A DNA stretch of 51,797 nt from Candidatus Minthosoma caballi (GTDB lineage Bacteria > Bacteroidota > Bacteroidia > Bacteroidales > Bacteroidaceae). Position numbers and translations under genes: made by a program. Shown piece after piece: positions 26,598-35,599 of this stretch (its first letter is position 1; every line of letters starts with the position of its first letter). The notes beneath the pieces are model-generated. The model searched no databases, was not told the origin of the DNA, and was given only the letters and a program-made list of their open reading frames with translations. The DNA lies in NCBI GenBank assembly GCA_018064505.1, contig JAGHVC010000072.1:1-51797 (forward strand), in the 5' to 3' direction.

Positions 26598-27956
26598 ATG
26601 GCACAGAAACCAAGCATTCCGAAGGGAACACGCGACTTTTCGCCTGTGGAAATGGCGAAGCGCAACTACATATTCAACACAATCAAGGATGTATATGCTT
26701 TGTATGGTTTTCAGCAGATTGAGACTCCTGCAATGGAGAATCTCAGCACGCTGATGGGCAAGTATGGCGAGGAGGGCGATAAGCTTCTCTTCAAGATTCT
26801 TAATTCTGGTGACTTCTTGCACGGCATGACTCCTGACGAAGTGGCAAACACAAGCACTTTGAAGCTTGCAAGCAAGTTCTGCGAGAAGGGCTTGCGCTAT
26901 GATCTCACAGTGCCTTTTGCTCGTTTTGTGGTTCAGCATCGCGAAGAACTTGCTTTGCCATTCAAGCGTTATCAGATTCAGCCAGTGTGGCGTGCTGACC
27001 GTCCGCAGAAGGGCCGCTATCGCGAGTTCTATCAGTGTGATGCTGATGTGGTTGGCAGCGAAAGCTTGCTCAACGAAGTGGAGCTGATGCAGATTGTTGA
27101 CACTGTGTTCTCTCGCTTCGGTGTGCGTGTGTGCATTAAGATAAACAACCGCAAGATTCTTACTGGTATTGCAGAAATGATTGGTCAGGCAGATAAGATT
27201 GTTGACATCACTGTGGCAATTGACAAGCTTGACAAGATAGGTCTTGATGCAGTGAATGCAGAGTTGGCAGAGGATGGAATCCCTCAGGATGCCATTGAGA
27301 AACTGCAGCCAATCATCAAGTTGAGTGGCACTAATGCTGAGAAGCTTGCAACAATGAAGGAAGTGCTGAAGGATAGCGAGATAGGCATTAAGGGTATTGA
27401 GGAGTGTGAGTTCATTCTTGGCAAGCTCGAGGCTCTTGGTCTTAACAATGCTATTGAACTTGACCTTACGCTTGCTCGTGGCTTGAACTATTACACTGGT
27501 GCTATCTTCGAGGTGAAGGCTCTTGATGTGCAGATTGGCTCTATCACAGGTGGTGGCCGTTACGACAACCTTACAGGCATCTTCGGAATGCCAGGTCTCA
27601 GTGGTGTGGGCATTTCATTTGGCGCAGATCGCATCTTTGATGTTCTCAACCAGCTTGACCTCTATCCTACAGAGGCAGTGAATGCCACTCAGATTCTGTT
27701 TGTTAACTTTGGTGAAGCTGAGGCAGATTTCTGTCTGCCTGTGCTTGCAAAGCTTCGTGCGGCAGGTGTTCGTGCTGAGATTTACCCTGATTCTGCTAAG
27801 ATGAAGAAGCAGATGAGCTATGCAAATGCAAAGGGCATTCCTTTCGTGGCAATCGTTGGCGAGAACGAGATGGCAGAGGGAAAGATTAATCTGAAGAACA
27901 TGACAACAGGAGAGCAGTGCATGGTTACTCCTGATGAAATACTTGAGAAGCTTTAG
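26598..27956 (+). CDS. hisS: Histidyl-tRNA synthetase
   Basis: A 452-residue class II aminoacyl-tRNA synthetase charging tRNA-His in the cytosol. Visible motifs are the N-terminal GTRDFSP, motif 2 ([26 protein letters not shown]), the histidine-binding [14 protein letters not shown], and motif 3 with GGGRYDNL and GISFGADRI. The C-terminal anticodon-binding domain covers about 360-452. Length is normal. It runs convergently into the ATPase-less kinase gene, and the two stop codons overlap within the four bases TTAG (27953-27956), so there is no space for an intrinsic terminator. Confidence 0.97.
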
Positions 27957-29629
27957 TGTTTCAAAGCTTCATTGCGAGCTGTCTCCAAAATTTTGTCAAG
28001 CTGATCGTTGAGCTGTGAGGCAGCGTCATAAATATACTTAGAGTATTCGGCTTTATCCTTGTCGCTGATGCTGATTTCCTCATCTGCAAGCACTTGGCTA
28101 AAGCCGATTACTGTTTGCAGAGGAGTGCGCACCTCGTGGTTCATATTCTGAATGAAAGCATTCTGCAGTTTGTCTGCTGCCACTGCTTTGTTGCGAGCTG
28201 TGTGCAGCATGTGGTAAAGCTGCATGAGTTTGCGCATTGATCTCCTCTTTTGATAGTTTCTAACGAAGAAATAAGCAACGGCAAGAATGAAGAATCCTAC
28301 AATGATGGCAAGCAGCAGTCGGATGTTGCTTGCTTGTTTCAGCTTTTTATCTGCTTGAGCACGCTTAAGTGCTTGTTCTTGAGCCGCAATTTTAGCCACT
28401 CCGCTGATGCTGTCTTCGATGAGCAGCATGCTTTCATATTCGCGAGCATGTGATTCTCTTTCCATTACGAGCCATTGGCTTGTAAGCTTCATGTCTTCTT
28501 GCTCAATATCAGCCTCTTTCAACCTCAGTTTTGCAAGAGCAAGCTCCTGCTCGTGCGCTGCAGCTGATACCTTAATATTCTCGGTTTTAGATGTGAAAGC
28601 AGCTATGTTGTAATCTGTGTGCGAGCTTGCAATTGAATCGTGACGAGCGCGTCCTTGCACCAACAGATTGTATGCCAGCTTGTAGTCATGTTGCTTGGCT
28701 GTCAGAATGTGCATGTTAATCTGATCTCCAATGTATGATACTGAGTCTGCATAGGCATGTGCAAGCTCGTAGTTGCCATCAAAAGCAGCTTTCATGCACT
28801 CAATCTGGTATAGGTCGTTATTTCCTATTAACACTCCAACCTTTGAGATGTATTTCTTCAGTTGATCATATTTTTCGTAGAAACTTTTCTTGTGTTCTGC
28901 ATTGCCGGCAAAAAGGCAATGATCGAGCATTGTGCCGAGGCTGTCAAGCTCTGTTTTTGCAAGGCTGAGAGAAATATCATAATATTTGTCGCGGTCTTTT
29001 CGCTTGTCTGTCACAGAGGCAAGGCAGCGATAAAGGTAGGAGATGGAATTGTCTTTAAGTTGTTTCGCTTCTTCTATCGCAAGCTTGTAATATTTGCTGG
29101 CACTCTCATTGTCGCCAATGCGAGTGTAGATGAGAGCTATGTTTTTATTGCATCCCATCACTCCTGCTCTAAAGCCTTCCATGTTTGCTTGATCTCGCAT
29201 CTCGCTGGCGAGGTGTGTAGCCTCCATCATATCATACGACATTATGTGGCTGTAAATCTCAATGTCGTAGGCGTGGTAATAATAGCTTTTGTCATTTTGT
29301 TTTCGCGCCTCAGCACGGAGATTGTCTGCTGCCACATGCATGTTTGCTTTGTCGTCCACTTCTGAGTAGTAGTAGAGTGGCAGTAAGTATGCAAACAATC
29401 TTGCTCGCTTATCATTGAGCCTGCTTGATGCTTGCATGATTGAGTCAGAATACGCAAGAGCCAATTTGGCTCCACGATGACGCAAACCGTCAGAATATAG
29501 TCGGTAGCATTCTTGTGAAATGCGGTATGGGTTGTCATCAGCAAATGTCATGCAAGTCACAAAGAGGGCGATGCAGAGTGCTGCTGCTCGTCCTATTTTT
29601 TGTGGCAATATGTAGTTCAAAAGAGTCAT
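27953..29629 (-). CDS. TPR sensor protein with DHp (HisKA) domain but no ATPase domain
   Basis: A 558-residue protein. The signal peptide or N-terminal helix (1-31) is followed by a mostly helical TPR-type periplasmic region (35-355), coiled coil (355-435), a membrane helix (about 437-456) and a HisKA dimerisation domain with phospho-acceptor His498 ([17 protein letters not shown]). It ends at residue 558, before any N, G1 or G2 box, so the HATPase domain is missing. Downstream DNA is hisS on the other strand, so nothing has merely been frameshifted. The start ATG overlaps the stop of the upstream kinase (ATGA), so the two are translationally coupled. It may be phosphorylated in trans by that kinase. 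A longer frame from 29764 is less likely because the signal peptide would be internal. Confidence 0.85.
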
Positions 29630-31626
29630 TTGCTGTTGTTTGTTGTATTCGTTGAGTTTGTCGCGTTTGTTGTGAGAGGGAATGCGAAAACGAAACGGGC
29701 GCCATTGGTGTAGGTCGTGTCGCATTTCACGAATCCGTTCAATCTGTTGGAAATCAAGCGGCAAATGTTGAGGCCTAAGCCTGTGCCTTGCTTGAAATCG
29801 TCTAGCTTTGTGAATCGTTCAAAGATGTTCTCTGCTTGTTCTTTCGGAATTCCACAACCAGTGTCGGCAACAGAGAATGTGATGAGGCCAGGATTCTCGG
29901 TGAGCGAGCAATGCAGATGAATAGAGCCCTCAGTGGTGTGCTTGCATGCATTGGTGAGGAAGTTGATAAGCACCTGTTGCACGCGGCGAGCATCAGTCAT
30001 GATTGTGAACGAATCGTCAACATCAGAAGTCATGTAAAGCTGCACTCCATCCTGCACTCTGTATTCTGCTGATGAAATGGCAGAGCGGCAAATGTCATTC
30101 ACCTCATGCTCACTAATCTTGATGTTGTATTTTCCATTCTCAATGTCGCTGATGTTCAAGATGTCGTCGATGAGCATAGTGAGCATCTTTGCATTGTTCT
30201 GAATATGGTTGCTGTACGCCTTATGTTCTTCATCTGAAAGAGGAAGATCAGGGATGCCGAGAATCTGTGCAAATCCCATCACGGCGTTGAGCGGGGTGCG
30301 GATTTCATGGCTCATGTTTTGGATGAAAAGATTCTTCATCTGGCTAGCATGAACGGCATCATTGCGAGCAATTCTCAGTTCGTCTGTCAGCTGCTGCAAG
30401 CGTGCCATGTGCTTGCGGTGCTTGTTTGTTCGGAATATCAGCACTGCTGCAATTATGATGAGCAAGCACAAAACGACTACGAGTGTTATGATGTTGTACT
30501 GCAACTGCTGTTCCTTCACCGTAGTTTCTGCCAGAATGCGGTCCATCTCAATTGCCTCAATCTGTCGTGCTCTGCCTTGGTTTCTATTGCGCAACGAGAT
30601 ATTGTGAGCTTCCTTTTCCTTTGTTTCTTTCTCCAGTTTTAATGCCTCGTTCTGCTTTTGAGTAAGCTCATTCTCTTTCTCAATCTGAGCAAGTTCCATA
30701 TTGGTGATTTCCAATTCATTGTCTCGTGTTCGTCGGGCAATATTGTCTGTTTCCAGATTGTGGGACAGCTCTCTTACATCCTTTACCACTTGAGCTCGAT
30801 TGCAAGAATCAAGATATTCCTTAAGTTTTTCTGAATGCTTGAATGCTTTCTTGTAATCTCCAAGATTGACAAAGTGCTTGCTCAAGAAAGCATGTTTTGA
30901 AACGAAGTCGCTGATTTCCTTTGCTGTTTCCTCTGCTTTTTCTGCGTTGCCTGCAAAGTCATAAGCGTATGCTTCGAGCACTGTGTTTTGTAGTTTATAT
31001 GTGCTTGCCTTGCCATTGCTATTGGCAACCTTGCTAAAAGCACTGCTGTATTTGTAAAAGTTGTCTTTGTCCCCAAGCGTAGCATACGCTTTTGCAATGC
31101 TGAAATATAGCAAAGCCTTTGAGCGCTCGCTTTTTGTTGCCTCTATTCCTTGAGAATATAAATGCAGAGCCTGTGCCGACTCTTTTGGCATATAAAGGTC
31201 TCCAAGCTTTTGATACAGAGTGCCAAAATCAATGTTAACATCCCCCAATTTGTGAGCTTGGTTTATGGCCTCTGACAAATGCTTCTTTGCCTCAGCGCGA
31301 TTGTTTCGTGCGAGGTAAACTTCGGAAATTGCTTTTTCGGCCACAAACTGACCATAAGTACTCCCATCTGCTTTAGCTTTGCTGACCATTGCGTCGGCTA
31401 AGTCGAGAGCTGTCAGTGAATGCTTTTCATCCAAAGCCTTGCTGACTTTTTTTGCCATTGAGTCATAGCTCTCTTGGTTCCGTTGCGAATTGTTTTTCTG
31501 TGTGTTTCCATCGTTTGCGATGAATACAGATTCTTTTCCGGTGAAGCAGTTGTGAGCACACACATTGCTGAAGCACATAATAGGCGCCAGCAATAGTAAT
31601 AATATTTTTTGTCGTATAGTCTTCAA
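29626..31626 (-). CDS. TPR-type membrane sensor histidine kinase
   Basis: A 666-residue sensor kinase. An N-terminal signal (KILLLLLAPIMCFSN) is followed by TPR-like helical repeats (about 45-265), a long coiled coil (285-375), a membrane helix (379-398), HisKA with His440 (NMSHEIRTPLNAVMGFA), and a complete HATPase (about 540-655; LINFLTNACKH N box, DTGCGIP, GTGLGLNI). The periplasmic TPR-coiled-coil sensor is common in Bacteroidetes. The only upstream start in frame is TTG at 31624-31626, since a stop lies at 31642-31644, so initiation at TTG is inferred. It sits 21 bases after the receiver gene and overlaps the ATPase-less partner by four bases. The receiver protein is its likely phosphorylation target. 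Confidence 0.9.
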   Translation of the reverse strand: MKTIRQKILLLLLAPIMCFSNVCAHNCFTGKESVFIANDGNTQKNNSQRNQESYDSMAKKVSKALDEKHSLTALDLADAMVSKAKADGSTYGQFVAEKAISEVYLARNNRAEAKKHLSEAINQAHKLGDVNIDFGTLYQKLGDLYMPKESAQALHLYSQGIEATKSERSKALLYFSIAKAYATLGDKDNFYKYSSAFSKVANSNGKASTYKLQNTVLEAYAYDFAGNAEKAEETAKEISDFVSKHAFLSKHFVNLGDYKKAFKHSEKLKEYLDSCNRAQVVKDVRELSHNLETDNIARRTRDNELEITNMELAQIEKENELTQKQNEALKLEKETKEKEAHNISLRNRNQGRARQIEAIEMDRILAETTVKEQQLQYNIITLVVVLCLLIIIAAVLIFRTNKHRKHMARLQQLTDELRIARNDAVHASQMKNLFIQNMSHEIRTPLNAVMGFAQILGIPDLPLSDEEHKAYSNHIQNNAKMLTMLIDDILNISDIENGKYNIKISEHEVNDICRSAISSAEYRVQDGVQLYMTSDVDDSFTIMTDARRVQQVLINFLTNACKHTTEGSIHLHCSLTENPGLITFSVADTGCGIPKEQAENIFERFTKLDDFKQGTGLGLNICRLISNRLNGFVKCDTTYTNGARFVFAFPLTTNATNSTNTTNNSK

Positions 31627-31647
31627 GATGCGATAGCCGCTCTATTA

Positions 31648-32082
31648 TCAGCCCATCTTCTTCATAGCCTCGTGGAGGTTGATTTGCTGAGTCACGCTCG
31701 CAATCAGTTTCTCCATGATCACTGGCTTGTTGATGAAGTCGTTGGCTCCAAGGCGGAATGCACGAGTGATGTCTTCCTCTGAGTTGAGGGCAGAGAGCAC
31801 GATGATAGGAATCTCCTTTGTGTCGTTGTTCTCACGCAAATGAGTGATCACCTCGAATCCGTCCATGATTGGCATGAGGAGGTCGAGAAGAATAAGATCT
31901 GGCTTTTTAGCAGCAACAGCATCGAGCGCAAGCTTTCCGTTGGTTGCTGTTCGTACCTCGAAAGTGTACTTTGTAAGCATCTTCTTGATGAGGAGCACAT
32001 TCAGCGGCACATCGTCAACGATGAGTACTGAAAGGCTGTTTACATCGATGCCTTCGTGGATGTATTGATTCATATTGTCCAT
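31648..32082 (-). CDS. Stand-alone response regulator receiver
   Basis: A 144-residue single-domain receiver. The acidic pair is Asp23-Asp24 (VDDVPLN), the phospho-acceptor Asp67 (LILLDLLMPIMDG), the switch residue Ser97 (VLSALN) and the conserved Lys119 (NKP). About 15 extra residues precede the domain, and no output domain follows. It probably acts by protein-protein contact, CheY-like, or as an intermediate in a phosphorelay. It lies between the zinc-ribbon protein gene and the TPR kinase gene, and is likely phosphorylated by that kinase. Confidence 0.93.
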   Translation of the reverse strand: MDNMNQYIHEGIDVNSLSVLIVDDVPLNVLLIKKMLTKYTFEVRTATNGKLALDAVAAKKPDLILLDLLMPIMDGFEVITHLRENNDTKEIPIIVLSALNSEEDITRAFRLGANDFINKPVIMEKLIASVTQQINLHEAMKKMG

Positions 32083-32095
32083 GTTTTCGTGTTAG

Positions 32096-32167
32096 TCAAA
32101 GTTGTTTTTTAATTGGAAAAAGTCTATGTCGTTTTTGTTTTGAAGTTCTTGAATTATCAAGTGCCAT
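32096..32167 (-). CDS. Possible 23-residue basic peptide
   Basis: An open frame reads MALDNSRTSKQKRHRLFPIKKQL and fills most of the gap between the zinc-ribbon gene and the receiver gene. It starts inside a GCCAT-CCGT-ATGGC hairpin (32163-32176). It is strongly basic (nine Lys/Arg/His). It could be a leader peptide or mere chance. Confidence 0.2.
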   Translation of the reverse strand: MALDNSRTSKQKRHRLFPIKKQL

Positions 32168-32208
32168 CCGTATGGCTTCCCATTCTATGCGATGGAGTTT
32201 GGACGGCC

Positions 32209-33654
32209 TTATTTCTTCTTAATTGTTGGGTCGTAGTCAACGCAGTCGTCAGGTGATTGAGAGATAAAGTTCATCTCCTTCACGAAATCCTCGATTGTTG
32301 ACTGGTTGCCCTGCAATTTCATGTAAGTGTAGCAGATGCGCTCTCCTGGCTCGATAGTAGTGAGAGCGGCTCTGATAGTCTCCGACAGCATCACCTGGAA
32401 GTTGATGATGCCCTCTTCCGTGTCGCCGGTGTAGTTGCGGATAATCGTGCCGATGTATGTGATATTGTTTGCTGCCGACACTTTGTTGTTAGGGAAGTAC
32501 AGGCATGCCAATTCGATGAACTCTGGGCGAATAGGCATTGTCTCTCCTTTCTCGTTGAGAATCCACATCTTGCCCACCAGTACATCGCCCTTGATGTTGC
32601 CGCTGAACTTCTGCTCTGCGAGCAATCGGATGCGGTTGACGAAGCGGTTGTACTCGATATAATTATCGTAGAACTCTGTGTAGATAGAAAATCCGATGTT
32701 TGGAGAAATGATAGACGAGCGTCCTTCTGCAGTGATTTCGTAGATGCTGATGTCCTGAGGAATCAATTCGTCTGCATCGTGCATCTTCTGGCAGCTAGTG
32801 CAGATTGTCTTCACCTTTGGCTCTATGAATGTGTTGCCGCAAGTGTTGCAAGTGTGAATTGTTGTTGGACGGTCGTAGTCAACTCCTATGTGGCGCAACA
32901 TCTGATGGCACTTAGGGCAGCGCAGCTGTCCGCCGAAACTGTAAGTGTGCTCAGGCGAAACATTGTCGCAGCGGAAGTGGTGAATCACCTCTTCTGTCTG
33001 AATAGATGACTGTCCGCACTTCGGGCAAGTGTGTACATATAATATATGAGAATGCAAGCATGAAGGGCATAGATGCACCTTGTGCACAAACTTAGTTGAG
33101 CGGAACATGCCTTTCTCAACCATCGATTGCACGAACACAAAGTACTCGCTCAGCTCATAGTGTCCAAGACGGTAGAATACATCGAACACAGGAATCACAT
33201 ATCCTGTCGAAGCCGACACATCAAGCTTTGGCACCAGCTCTGTTTTCTTGCGCGATATAAGGTATCTTGTCAGTCTTATGAAAAATTGATTTGAAGAAAG
33301 AATAGGATCTTCCTGAGTCGTGAGTCCTATCTTTGTGCGGTAGCTGATGAGATCCTCTATCTTCGTCATCACATCCATGTTGTTCCAGTCATCAGCATAG
33401 CCGTCCACGATTTCGTCGTAGTTGCCAAGCTTTCCATTCAGCGAGCTTGCCACAAACAGTGGCTTGTAGCAGCACTTGCTCGAAGTGACAGGATTTATGT
33501 GGTTGAGGATGGTCTTTGTTTCTTCTGCCGATTCATTTGCAATGAAAATGACATCGAAAAGATACTCTGGAAAGTCAGGGCTCTCATCAAGTGCAAATGG
33601 GCTGTCAAGGAGAAGAACTCGTCTGCCGCCATCGTTGTTTTGTATGGTAATCAT
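32209..33654 (-). CDS. Zinc-ribbon (TackOD1-like) signalling protein
   Basis: A 481-residue cytosolic protein. Residues 10-110 resemble a degenerate receiver (RRVLLLDSPFAL, FDVIFIAN, KPLFVAS). Residues 195-290 carry five CxxC pairs (196/199, 210/213, 246/249, 269/272, 285/288), the multi-zinc-ribbon pattern that I associate with the TackOD1 output domain first described in archaeal signalling proteins. The rest (315-470) is a mixed alpha/beta domain that weakly recalls a degenerate GGDEF fold (INFQVMLSETIRAAL) but has no GGDEF motif. It is first in the minus-strand cluster with the receiver and the two TPR kinases, so it is probably an output or adaptor of that pathway. Assignment to TackOD1 is by memory of the pattern. 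Confidence 0.7.
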   Translation of the reverse strand: MITIQNNDGGRRVLLLDSPFALDESPDFPEYLFDVIFIANESAEETKTILNHINPVTSSKCCYKPLFVASSLNGKLGNYDEIVDGYADDWNNMDVMTKIEDLISYRTKIGLTTQEDPILSSNQFFIRLTRYLISRKKTELVPKLDVSASTGYVIPVFDVFYRLGHYELSEYFVFVQSMVEKGMFRSTKFVHKVHLCPSCLHSHILYVHTCPKCGQSSIQTEEVIHHFRCDNVSPEHTYSFGGQLRCPKCHQMLRHIGVDYDRPTTIHTCNTCGNTFIEPKVKTICTSCQKMHDADELIPQDISIYEITAEGRSSIISPNIGFSIYTEFYDNYIEYNRFVNRIRLLAEQKFSGNIKGDVLVGKMWILNEKGETMPIRPEFIELACLYFPNNKVSAANNITYIGTIIRNYTGDTEEGIINFQVMLSETIRAALTTIEPGERICYTYMKLQGNQSTIEDFVKEMNFISQSPDDCVDYDPTIKKK

Positions 33655-33905
33655 ATTTTAAGTAGTGAGTGTGAATTCCTCGTGTTTTTGATAATTTAAG
33701 CATGGGCGCAACTCGCCCTTGCATGTCATAGGTTGATATGCAAAATTAAAATAAAAAAATGAGAAACAAGTTTTTTTATGCTATTTTTTTATGTTTTCAC
33801 TCTTTTTTGCACGAAAACACCACAAAATCCAACGGTTTAAACCATCTCCAAAATCTAAAACAAAAAAGTTATAAGCTTTTTCTTACACATTACTAAATAC
33901 TAAAA
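33655..33905. other. Intergenic region upstream of the zinc-ribbon gene
   Basis: It contains the cluster promoter (minus strand) and a GGGCG-CAACT-CGCCC hairpin at 33704-33718 in the predicted leader. An A/T-only hairpin (AAAAAG/CTTTTT at 33863-33881) could be the terminator of the minus-strand DUF3109 gene. The rest is AT-rich without recognisable signals. Confidence 0.5.
33741..33769 (-). promoter_or_regulatory. Promoter of the signalling cluster
   Basis: On the minus strand, TTG (33769-33767) and TAATTTTG (33748-33741) are 18 bases apart, about 87 bases before the zinc-ribbon gene start. The leader carries a GC-rich hairpin. Confidence 0.6.
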
Positions 33906-34598: not shown

Positions 34599-35522
34599 TT
34601 ATGCTTTTTGTTTTGATGCCCTTGCCTTGCTTTGTGTCACTAAATACACTCCTGTGAACACCAGCACCACTGATAGTGATTGCCCCCACCCGAAAACGCC
34701 AAGTCCAAGCAGCACGCTCACTACGCAAGAGACAATAGGCTGTACATAATTGTACATGGCAATCACTGTTGGGCGCAAAATCTTCTGTGCATTGATGCTG
34801 AAAAGATAGGCAACAAATGTGCCGCCAACTACTACGAATGCTGCCTCAAGATAAGTCTTAATAGGAATCTCGCTCCACGGCAAGGCAGCAATCTTTGTGT
34901 ACGAAAACGGCAGAATAACTATTGCAGCATAAGTGATCATCCACTTCATGCAAGTCACCACAGAGTACCTCTGAATCAGATGCTTGAATATTGTAAGGTA
35001 GCAAGCAAAACTCACTTGAGCGCAGATACAGAGTATATCACCCAGTAGCACCCCTCCCGTTTGCGTTTGCGCTTGGCTGCTGCCCATGATAAGAATGCAT
35101 GCTCCTATAGCGCCACAGAACACGCCCATCACTTTCTTGCTTGTAACCGGTTCCTTTAGAAACACAGCAGCCAGCACCATCGTGATTATAGGCATGGTGG
35201 TTGTCATGATGCTGGCGTTCACAGGCGAAGTGATTGACAAACCTATGGTGTAACAGCACTGATTCATAACAATTCCCAGCATTCCAGCAAAGAAGAATCG
35301 GAGCATGTCCTTCGAACTTACCTCTTCCATCTTCTCGTGGCGCACTTTTTTCTTCATGCTGATGAATAGCGAGGCCAGCCAGAAACACACCGCACCGCCA
35401 GTCACTCTGAAAGTCACCATCTCCAATCCGGGAATCCCATGAGTCATTGCATCTTTGCCAAGTGGAGCCATCAATCCCCAAATGGCACAAGCAATCGCCA
35501 TGCACAGATGTCCAAAAAGCAT
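34599..35522 (-). CDS. EamA family (DMT) transporter
   Basis: A 307-residue inner-membrane protein with ten predicted helices and two EamA repeats (GHLCMAIACAIWGLMAPLGKDAM at the start; GDILCICAQVSFACYLTIFKHL at the second repeat). The drug/metabolite transporter superfamily exports metabolites, amino acids or nucleosides; the substrate is unknown. I chose ATG 35522 because a TAnnTTTG box occupies 35592-35599 and so overlaps the possible upstream TTG start (35594). The C-terminus is basic (KARASKQKA). Confidence 0.87.
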   Translation of the reverse strand: MLFGHLCMAIACAIWGLMAPLGKDAMTHGIPGLEMVTFRVTGGAVCFWLASLFISMKKKVRHEKMEEVSSKDMLRFFFAGMLGIVMNQCCYTIGLSITSPVNASIMTTTMPIITMVLAAVFLKEPVTSKKVMGVFCGAIGACILIMGSSQAQTQTGGVLLGDILCICAQVSFACYLTIFKHLIQRYSVVTCMKWMITYAAIVILPFSYTKIAALPWSEIPIKTYLEAAFVVVGGTFVAYLFSINAQKILRPTVIAMYNYVQPIVSCVVSVLLGLGVFGWGQSLSVVLVFTGVYLVTQSKARASKQKA

Positions 35523-35591
35523 CCGTTTCCAATCTTTTCCTTTGTGTGCGTACACGGAAGTTTGATTTATGTCAACAAATTGTAGCTTTTC

Positions 35592-35599
35592 CAAAAATA
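35592..35599 (-). promoter_or_regulatory. -7 promoter box of the EamA gene
   Basis: On the minus strand this reads TATTTTTG. It lies back to back with a + strand promoter at 35610-35644. Confidence 0.5.

Follow-up and report, generated by a model that had tools for sequence, protein, structure and literature searches.

What do four co-directional signalling genes act on when none of them carries a recognizable output? This question is raised by the window considered here, the whole 51,797-nucleotide stretch of Candidatus Minthosoma caballi DNA that was analysed (contig JAGHVC010000072.1, C205 in our sets, from a metagenome-assembled genome that is 88% complete). On the minus strand, positions 27953–33654 hold, in order, Z, a TackOD1 protein; R, a lone receiver; K, a kinase with HisKA and HATPase_c domains; and D, a kinase-like protein with HisKA only. 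An earlier note on this DNA had described these genes as a pathway without evident DNA-binding or enzymatic output, its signal probably ending in a protein–protein contact through the zinc protein. The cluster is real, a profile search found no DNA-binding or enzymatic domain in it, and protein–protein contact is still the best explanation of the output. The four-gene pathway is not upheld, as only Z and R travel together, and the note lacked one piece of context: in relatives, TackOD1 is housed in a polysaccharide synthase operon. What the analysis brings out is the Z–R pair, together with the association of that pair with one family of polysaccharide synthases; the four-gene cluster is local and partly accidental. 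By a modest margin over doubt, we favour reading Z as a control subunit, similar to BcsE of cellulose secretion, that is switched by R, the pair having outlived the synthase in 30 species, this one included.

The link between TackOD1 and the synthase carries most of this argument. It was followed through 45 genomes of the window's genus, 393 genomes of the order, 12 TackOD1 copies other than the window's own in 11 genomes of the phylum, and 14 of 18 plasmid TackOD1 records (11 bacterial, three archaeal). A PgaC/IcaA-like family 2 glycosyltransferase (GT2) adjoins TackOD1 in every other TackOD1-bearing genome of the order sample (11/11), and a GT2 does so in all 12 phylum copies and all 11 bacterial plasmid records, usually together with HlyD/TolC-type genes. 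The reverse also holds: at E ≤ 1e-60 the GT2 occurs in exactly those 11 of the 393 order genomes. Within the window's genus, six genomes have the gene order outer membrane factor (OMF)–HlyD–Z–GT2–(UGD)–R, with UGD present in four. In relatives, the gene set around Z–R looks like one that makes and exports a sugar polymer. A literature search found no link between TackOD1 and a polysaccharide synthase; one paper returned as TackOD1-related (PMC6992631) was rejected as a chance match within a plasmid name.

Z itself (32209–33654, minus strand) has an orthologue in 36 of the 45 genus genomes, its own included, and scores 170.2 bits against the TackOD1 profile (PF18551; gathering cut-off 32). As the earlier note had recognized, it is a multi-zinc protein with a degenerate receiver at its start. 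Residues 1–110 (33325–33654, minus strand) are predicted to form an alpha/beta fold (pLDDT block means 53–85), and alignment to receiver-fused homologues places a gap at the phospho-Asp column and an Asp at the Lys column. The TackOD1 domain follows (residues 122–307; 32734–33291, minus strand), with conserved CxxC motifs and a His-Cys pair from which metal binding is predicted; across 35 aligned rows, the window included, 11 cysteines and one histidine are invariant (C196, C199, C210, C213, H225, C229, C246, C249, C269, C272, C285 and C288), and a DYD.P motif accompanies them. Residues 350–473 (32236–32607, minus strand) may be a degenerate GGDEF-type domain; the predicted topology is compatible with this, and the C-termini of other Bacteroidota homologues align to GGDEF sequences by hhalign with P of 2e-6 and 4e-4. 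The ratio of nonsynonymous to synonymous substitution (dN/dS) is 0.036–0.071 in the four pairs that yielded a dS, although dS is high (1.3–3.3); for pairs with the window, three of seven gave a computable dS, and the ratio is 0.036–0.048 at a dS near saturation (2.2–3.3). From these values Z looks to be under constraint.

R (31648–32082, minus strand) retains the acidic pair, phospho-Asp, Ser and Lys of a single-domain response regulator, and the same residues are found in 26 of 26 homologues (six by an over-strict script pattern, 20 by eye). It is present in all 36 genomes with Z, and the two share contig and strand in 37 of 37 Z copies. Elsewhere, at locus L114 (8966–18754, in G000:C102), genes for a membrane protein, a GT2, a TPR/YaiO-like protein and DUF4838 make up a PgaC-like operon, which is accompanied by a divergent paralogue of R (about 50% identity); this operon recurs in G015, where no receiver was found beside it.

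That R acts on Z is argued chiefly from the exchange of fused and separate receivers between relatives and the window's genus. A receiver is fused to TackOD1 in three of eight proteins run against Pfam (those of Palleronia, Roseibium and locus L154), and a receiver-type start is found in six of the 12 phylum copies, five of which retain both Asp and Lys; most TackOD1 relatives have no true receiver within the protein itself. The window's genus shows the reversed layout, with the degenerate receiver fused in Z and the true receiver, R, encoded separately. At two of the six copies with a receiver-type start, a separate small open reading frame also lies between the HlyD-type gene and TackOD1 (L154, 9617–9946, 109 amino acids; L156, 10146–10505, 119 amino acids), and its product weakly resembles the Z N-terminus. 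Pfam further identifies a GGDEF-type domain in two TackOD1 relatives, from Plesiomonas and Aeromonas. Such a variety of modules on one core (a receiver, a degenerate receiver or a GGDEF-type domain) is typical of a regulator, and the persistence of Z without the synthase speaks for the same reading. The small Aeromonas caviae plasmid pKAM345_3 (L148, L162), which is typed as mobilizable, has a TackOD1–GGDEF-type gene clustered with a GT2 match, TolC and HlyD, and this cluster runs across the plasmid's start. We propose that phosphorylation of R would switch Z, and that Z, as control subunit, would govern the GT2 synthase-exporter where the operon is present.

It is informative to ask what this pair might do where the operon is gone. 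The window locus has no GT2, HlyD or OMF gene, and a search of the window genome, at its 88% completeness, for the GT2 gave nothing at E ≤ 1e-30; in the genus such matches occur in six of 45 genomes, the same six that have the operon. On the Z tree, which is rooted at the midpoint and carries a long-branch warning for its further-out rows, the 21 rows used that lack the synthase group in a single clade (99/97), next to the four genus rows used that have it (100/99). Locus L123 lies outside both clades and has the operon, with no R within the 18 kb examined. Since the wider context of TackOD1 elsewhere leads us to take the operon as ancestral, thirty genomes seem to have retained Z–R after synthase loss. 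Alternatively, the pair could by now serve a client that has nothing to do with polysaccharides, in which case its company in other genomes would be a poor guide to its role here. We regard this as possible but distinctly less probable than a BcsE-like role: no candidate client was found, none of the 12 metal-ligand positions of Z has been lost, and its alignment with synthase-linked relatives spans its length.

Several observations nonetheless weigh against Z as a synthase control subunit switched by R. Thirty of the 36 Z genomes have neither a linked synthase nor a GT2 match at E ≤ 1e-30, and therefore the polysaccharide role stands on relatives, not on the window genome. Three genus genomes without Z (G029, G030 and G033) retain R, so R cannot act through Z alone. 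Three hhalign comparisons of C-termini from the window genus with GGDEF sequences were non-significant (P 0.24–0.7), and the fold search gave no match at E ≤ 0.001. At one operon locus (L049) the HlyD-type and OMF-type proteins have no meaningful Pfam match, and their labels are based on place and on similarity to recognized relatives. Finally, two of the three archaeal plasmid records have no annotated glycosyltransferase near TackOD1, although their gene tables are incomplete. In two of the three genomes that keep R but have no match to Z, R stands by itself following the DUF3109 gene (L087, 9997–10425; L089, 9344–9835); there it either does something independent of Z or is a leftover.

Several known systems can be compared with Z. 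The one paper found to name TackOD1, PMC5847659, describes its function as obscure and reports archaeal REC-TackOD1 response regulators; the archaeal family is also reported from type IV pilus loci (PMC4858521). Z resembles the archaeal proteins in its CxxC pairs, His-Cys pair and receiver input, but there the receiver is fused (PMC5847659), whereas in the window's genus it is a separate neighbouring gene accompanied by the degenerate receiver at the Z N-terminus. In bacteria, furthermore, TackOD1 relatives go with GT2 synthases, which the TackOD1 passages of that paper do not mention. BcsE is a cytoplasmic degenerate receiver–GGDEF tandem that serves the cellulose secretion machine (PMC7439463); Z would work along similar lines, with its degenerate receiver, its link to synthase-dependent secretion and, if the C-terminal reading holds, a degenerate GGDEF domain. 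It differs in the multi-zinc domain between the two, in the absence of any BcsE family match in Pfam (E up to 1) or NCBIfam (E up to 0.01), and in belonging to a genus where no GGDEF domain was found by Pfam (0/45 genomes; eight of 14 controls positive). Z probably works without cyclic di-GMP (c-di-GMP). Among regulated exporters, Alg44 combines PilZ with an HlyD-like part. The BgsBA mixed-linkage beta-glucan system pairs a GT synthase with an HlyD-like partner, as TackOD1 operons do, but c-di-GMP binds its synthase C-terminus directly, and the accessible description mentions no TackOD1 or receiver subunit (PMC9495663). PelD is a degenerate GGDEF subunit that controls polymer output in response to c-di-GMP (PMC8461298); the input proposed here is instead a phospho-receiver. 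More tentatively, and with the balance somewhat against it, TackOD1 proteins may control a whole class of polysaccharide synthase-exporters, widespread but unrecognized in the literature searched, as subunits that use a phospho-receiver in place of c-di-GMP; in one genus of Bacteroidales, the pair would then have outlived the synthase in no fewer than 30 species and would command a new client.

The two kinases raise a different question, namely whether they belong to the pair at all. K (29626–31626, minus strand) is a sensor histidine kinase matching both HisKA and HATPase_c; by eye, its start resembles a signal peptide and it has a membrane segment. D (27953–29629, minus strand) still has the acceptor domain, His included, but stops directly after it, with no HATPase match in a profile search. 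The earlier claim of two TPR sensors, one with an ATPase, stands as to the ATPase, but the TPR matches, weak in K, score below cut-off. Z neighbours were compared in 35 other Z-bearing genus genomes (26 named, plus six and three): neither K nor D lies beside R in any of them (0/35, although in two the contig ends just past R and does not show what follows), so the four genes, which the note had proposed to seek as a conserved neighbourhood, are not found together elsewhere in the genus. The best-scoring relatives of D in the 45 genomes are longer kinases, 27–28% identical and at other locations; the one in G030 has 731 amino acids and both HisKA and HATPase_c. A chance pairing of ordinary, unrelated kinases beside Z–R would fit the tandem K-like pairs at unrelated locations in G030 and G029. 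It fits less well with the common strand, the 21-base gap between R and K and the lack of an intergenic -7 element between the genes, and we consider it a plausible minority explanation. A dedicated phosphorelay from K to R to D, with Z as end point and D as a phosphotransfer protein for which we take Spo0B as the model, appears improbable, even though the tight spacing of R, K and D and the retained acceptor His of D are in its favour. So is the long branch of the window R, expected if R were retuned to new partners: of 97 sites that do not vary among 23 other R proteins, 15 have changed here (at most one in any other R), and its branch ratio is 6.5 against 1.05–2.0 for four neighbouring genes, Z among them.

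The note was right about the spacing: 21 bases separate R from K, and K and D overlap by ATGA. Upstream of Z lies TAATTTTG (33741–33748, minus strand), with CTTG upstream of the site, a motif that we take to be a -7 element of the Bacteroidota type; none was found between the four genes. A single transcript of all four is thus possible, judging from these motifs. Over the whole window, TTTG-N18-24-TAnnTTTG has eight matches at seven sites, two of them with a common -7 element, where 1.6 would be expected. At the far end, hisS (tRNA-synt_His by Pfam; 26598–27956, plus strand) is convergent, its stop codon overlapping that of D; in 21 of the 26 named relatives hisS directly follows R. A perfect 8-base inverted repeat, GAAGCTTT/AAAGCTTC, spans the two stops (27947–27970) with no T run by eye, and is possibly the trace of a deletion that cut D. 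Beyond the cluster, an EamA transporter gene (34599–35594) adjoining the DUF3109 gene is shared with G033 (65%), but as a query it matched nothing at the remaining genus loci that were searched.

Because the link to one GT2 synthase subfamily is two-way and near exclusive in the samples searched, TackOD1 gains a testable role in the making and export of sugar polymers, with phosphorylation of a receiver as the proposed control in a genus where no diguanylate cyclase was detected. The retention of Z–R without the synthase would, in turn, offer a natural experiment in which a regulator has survived the loss of its enzyme.
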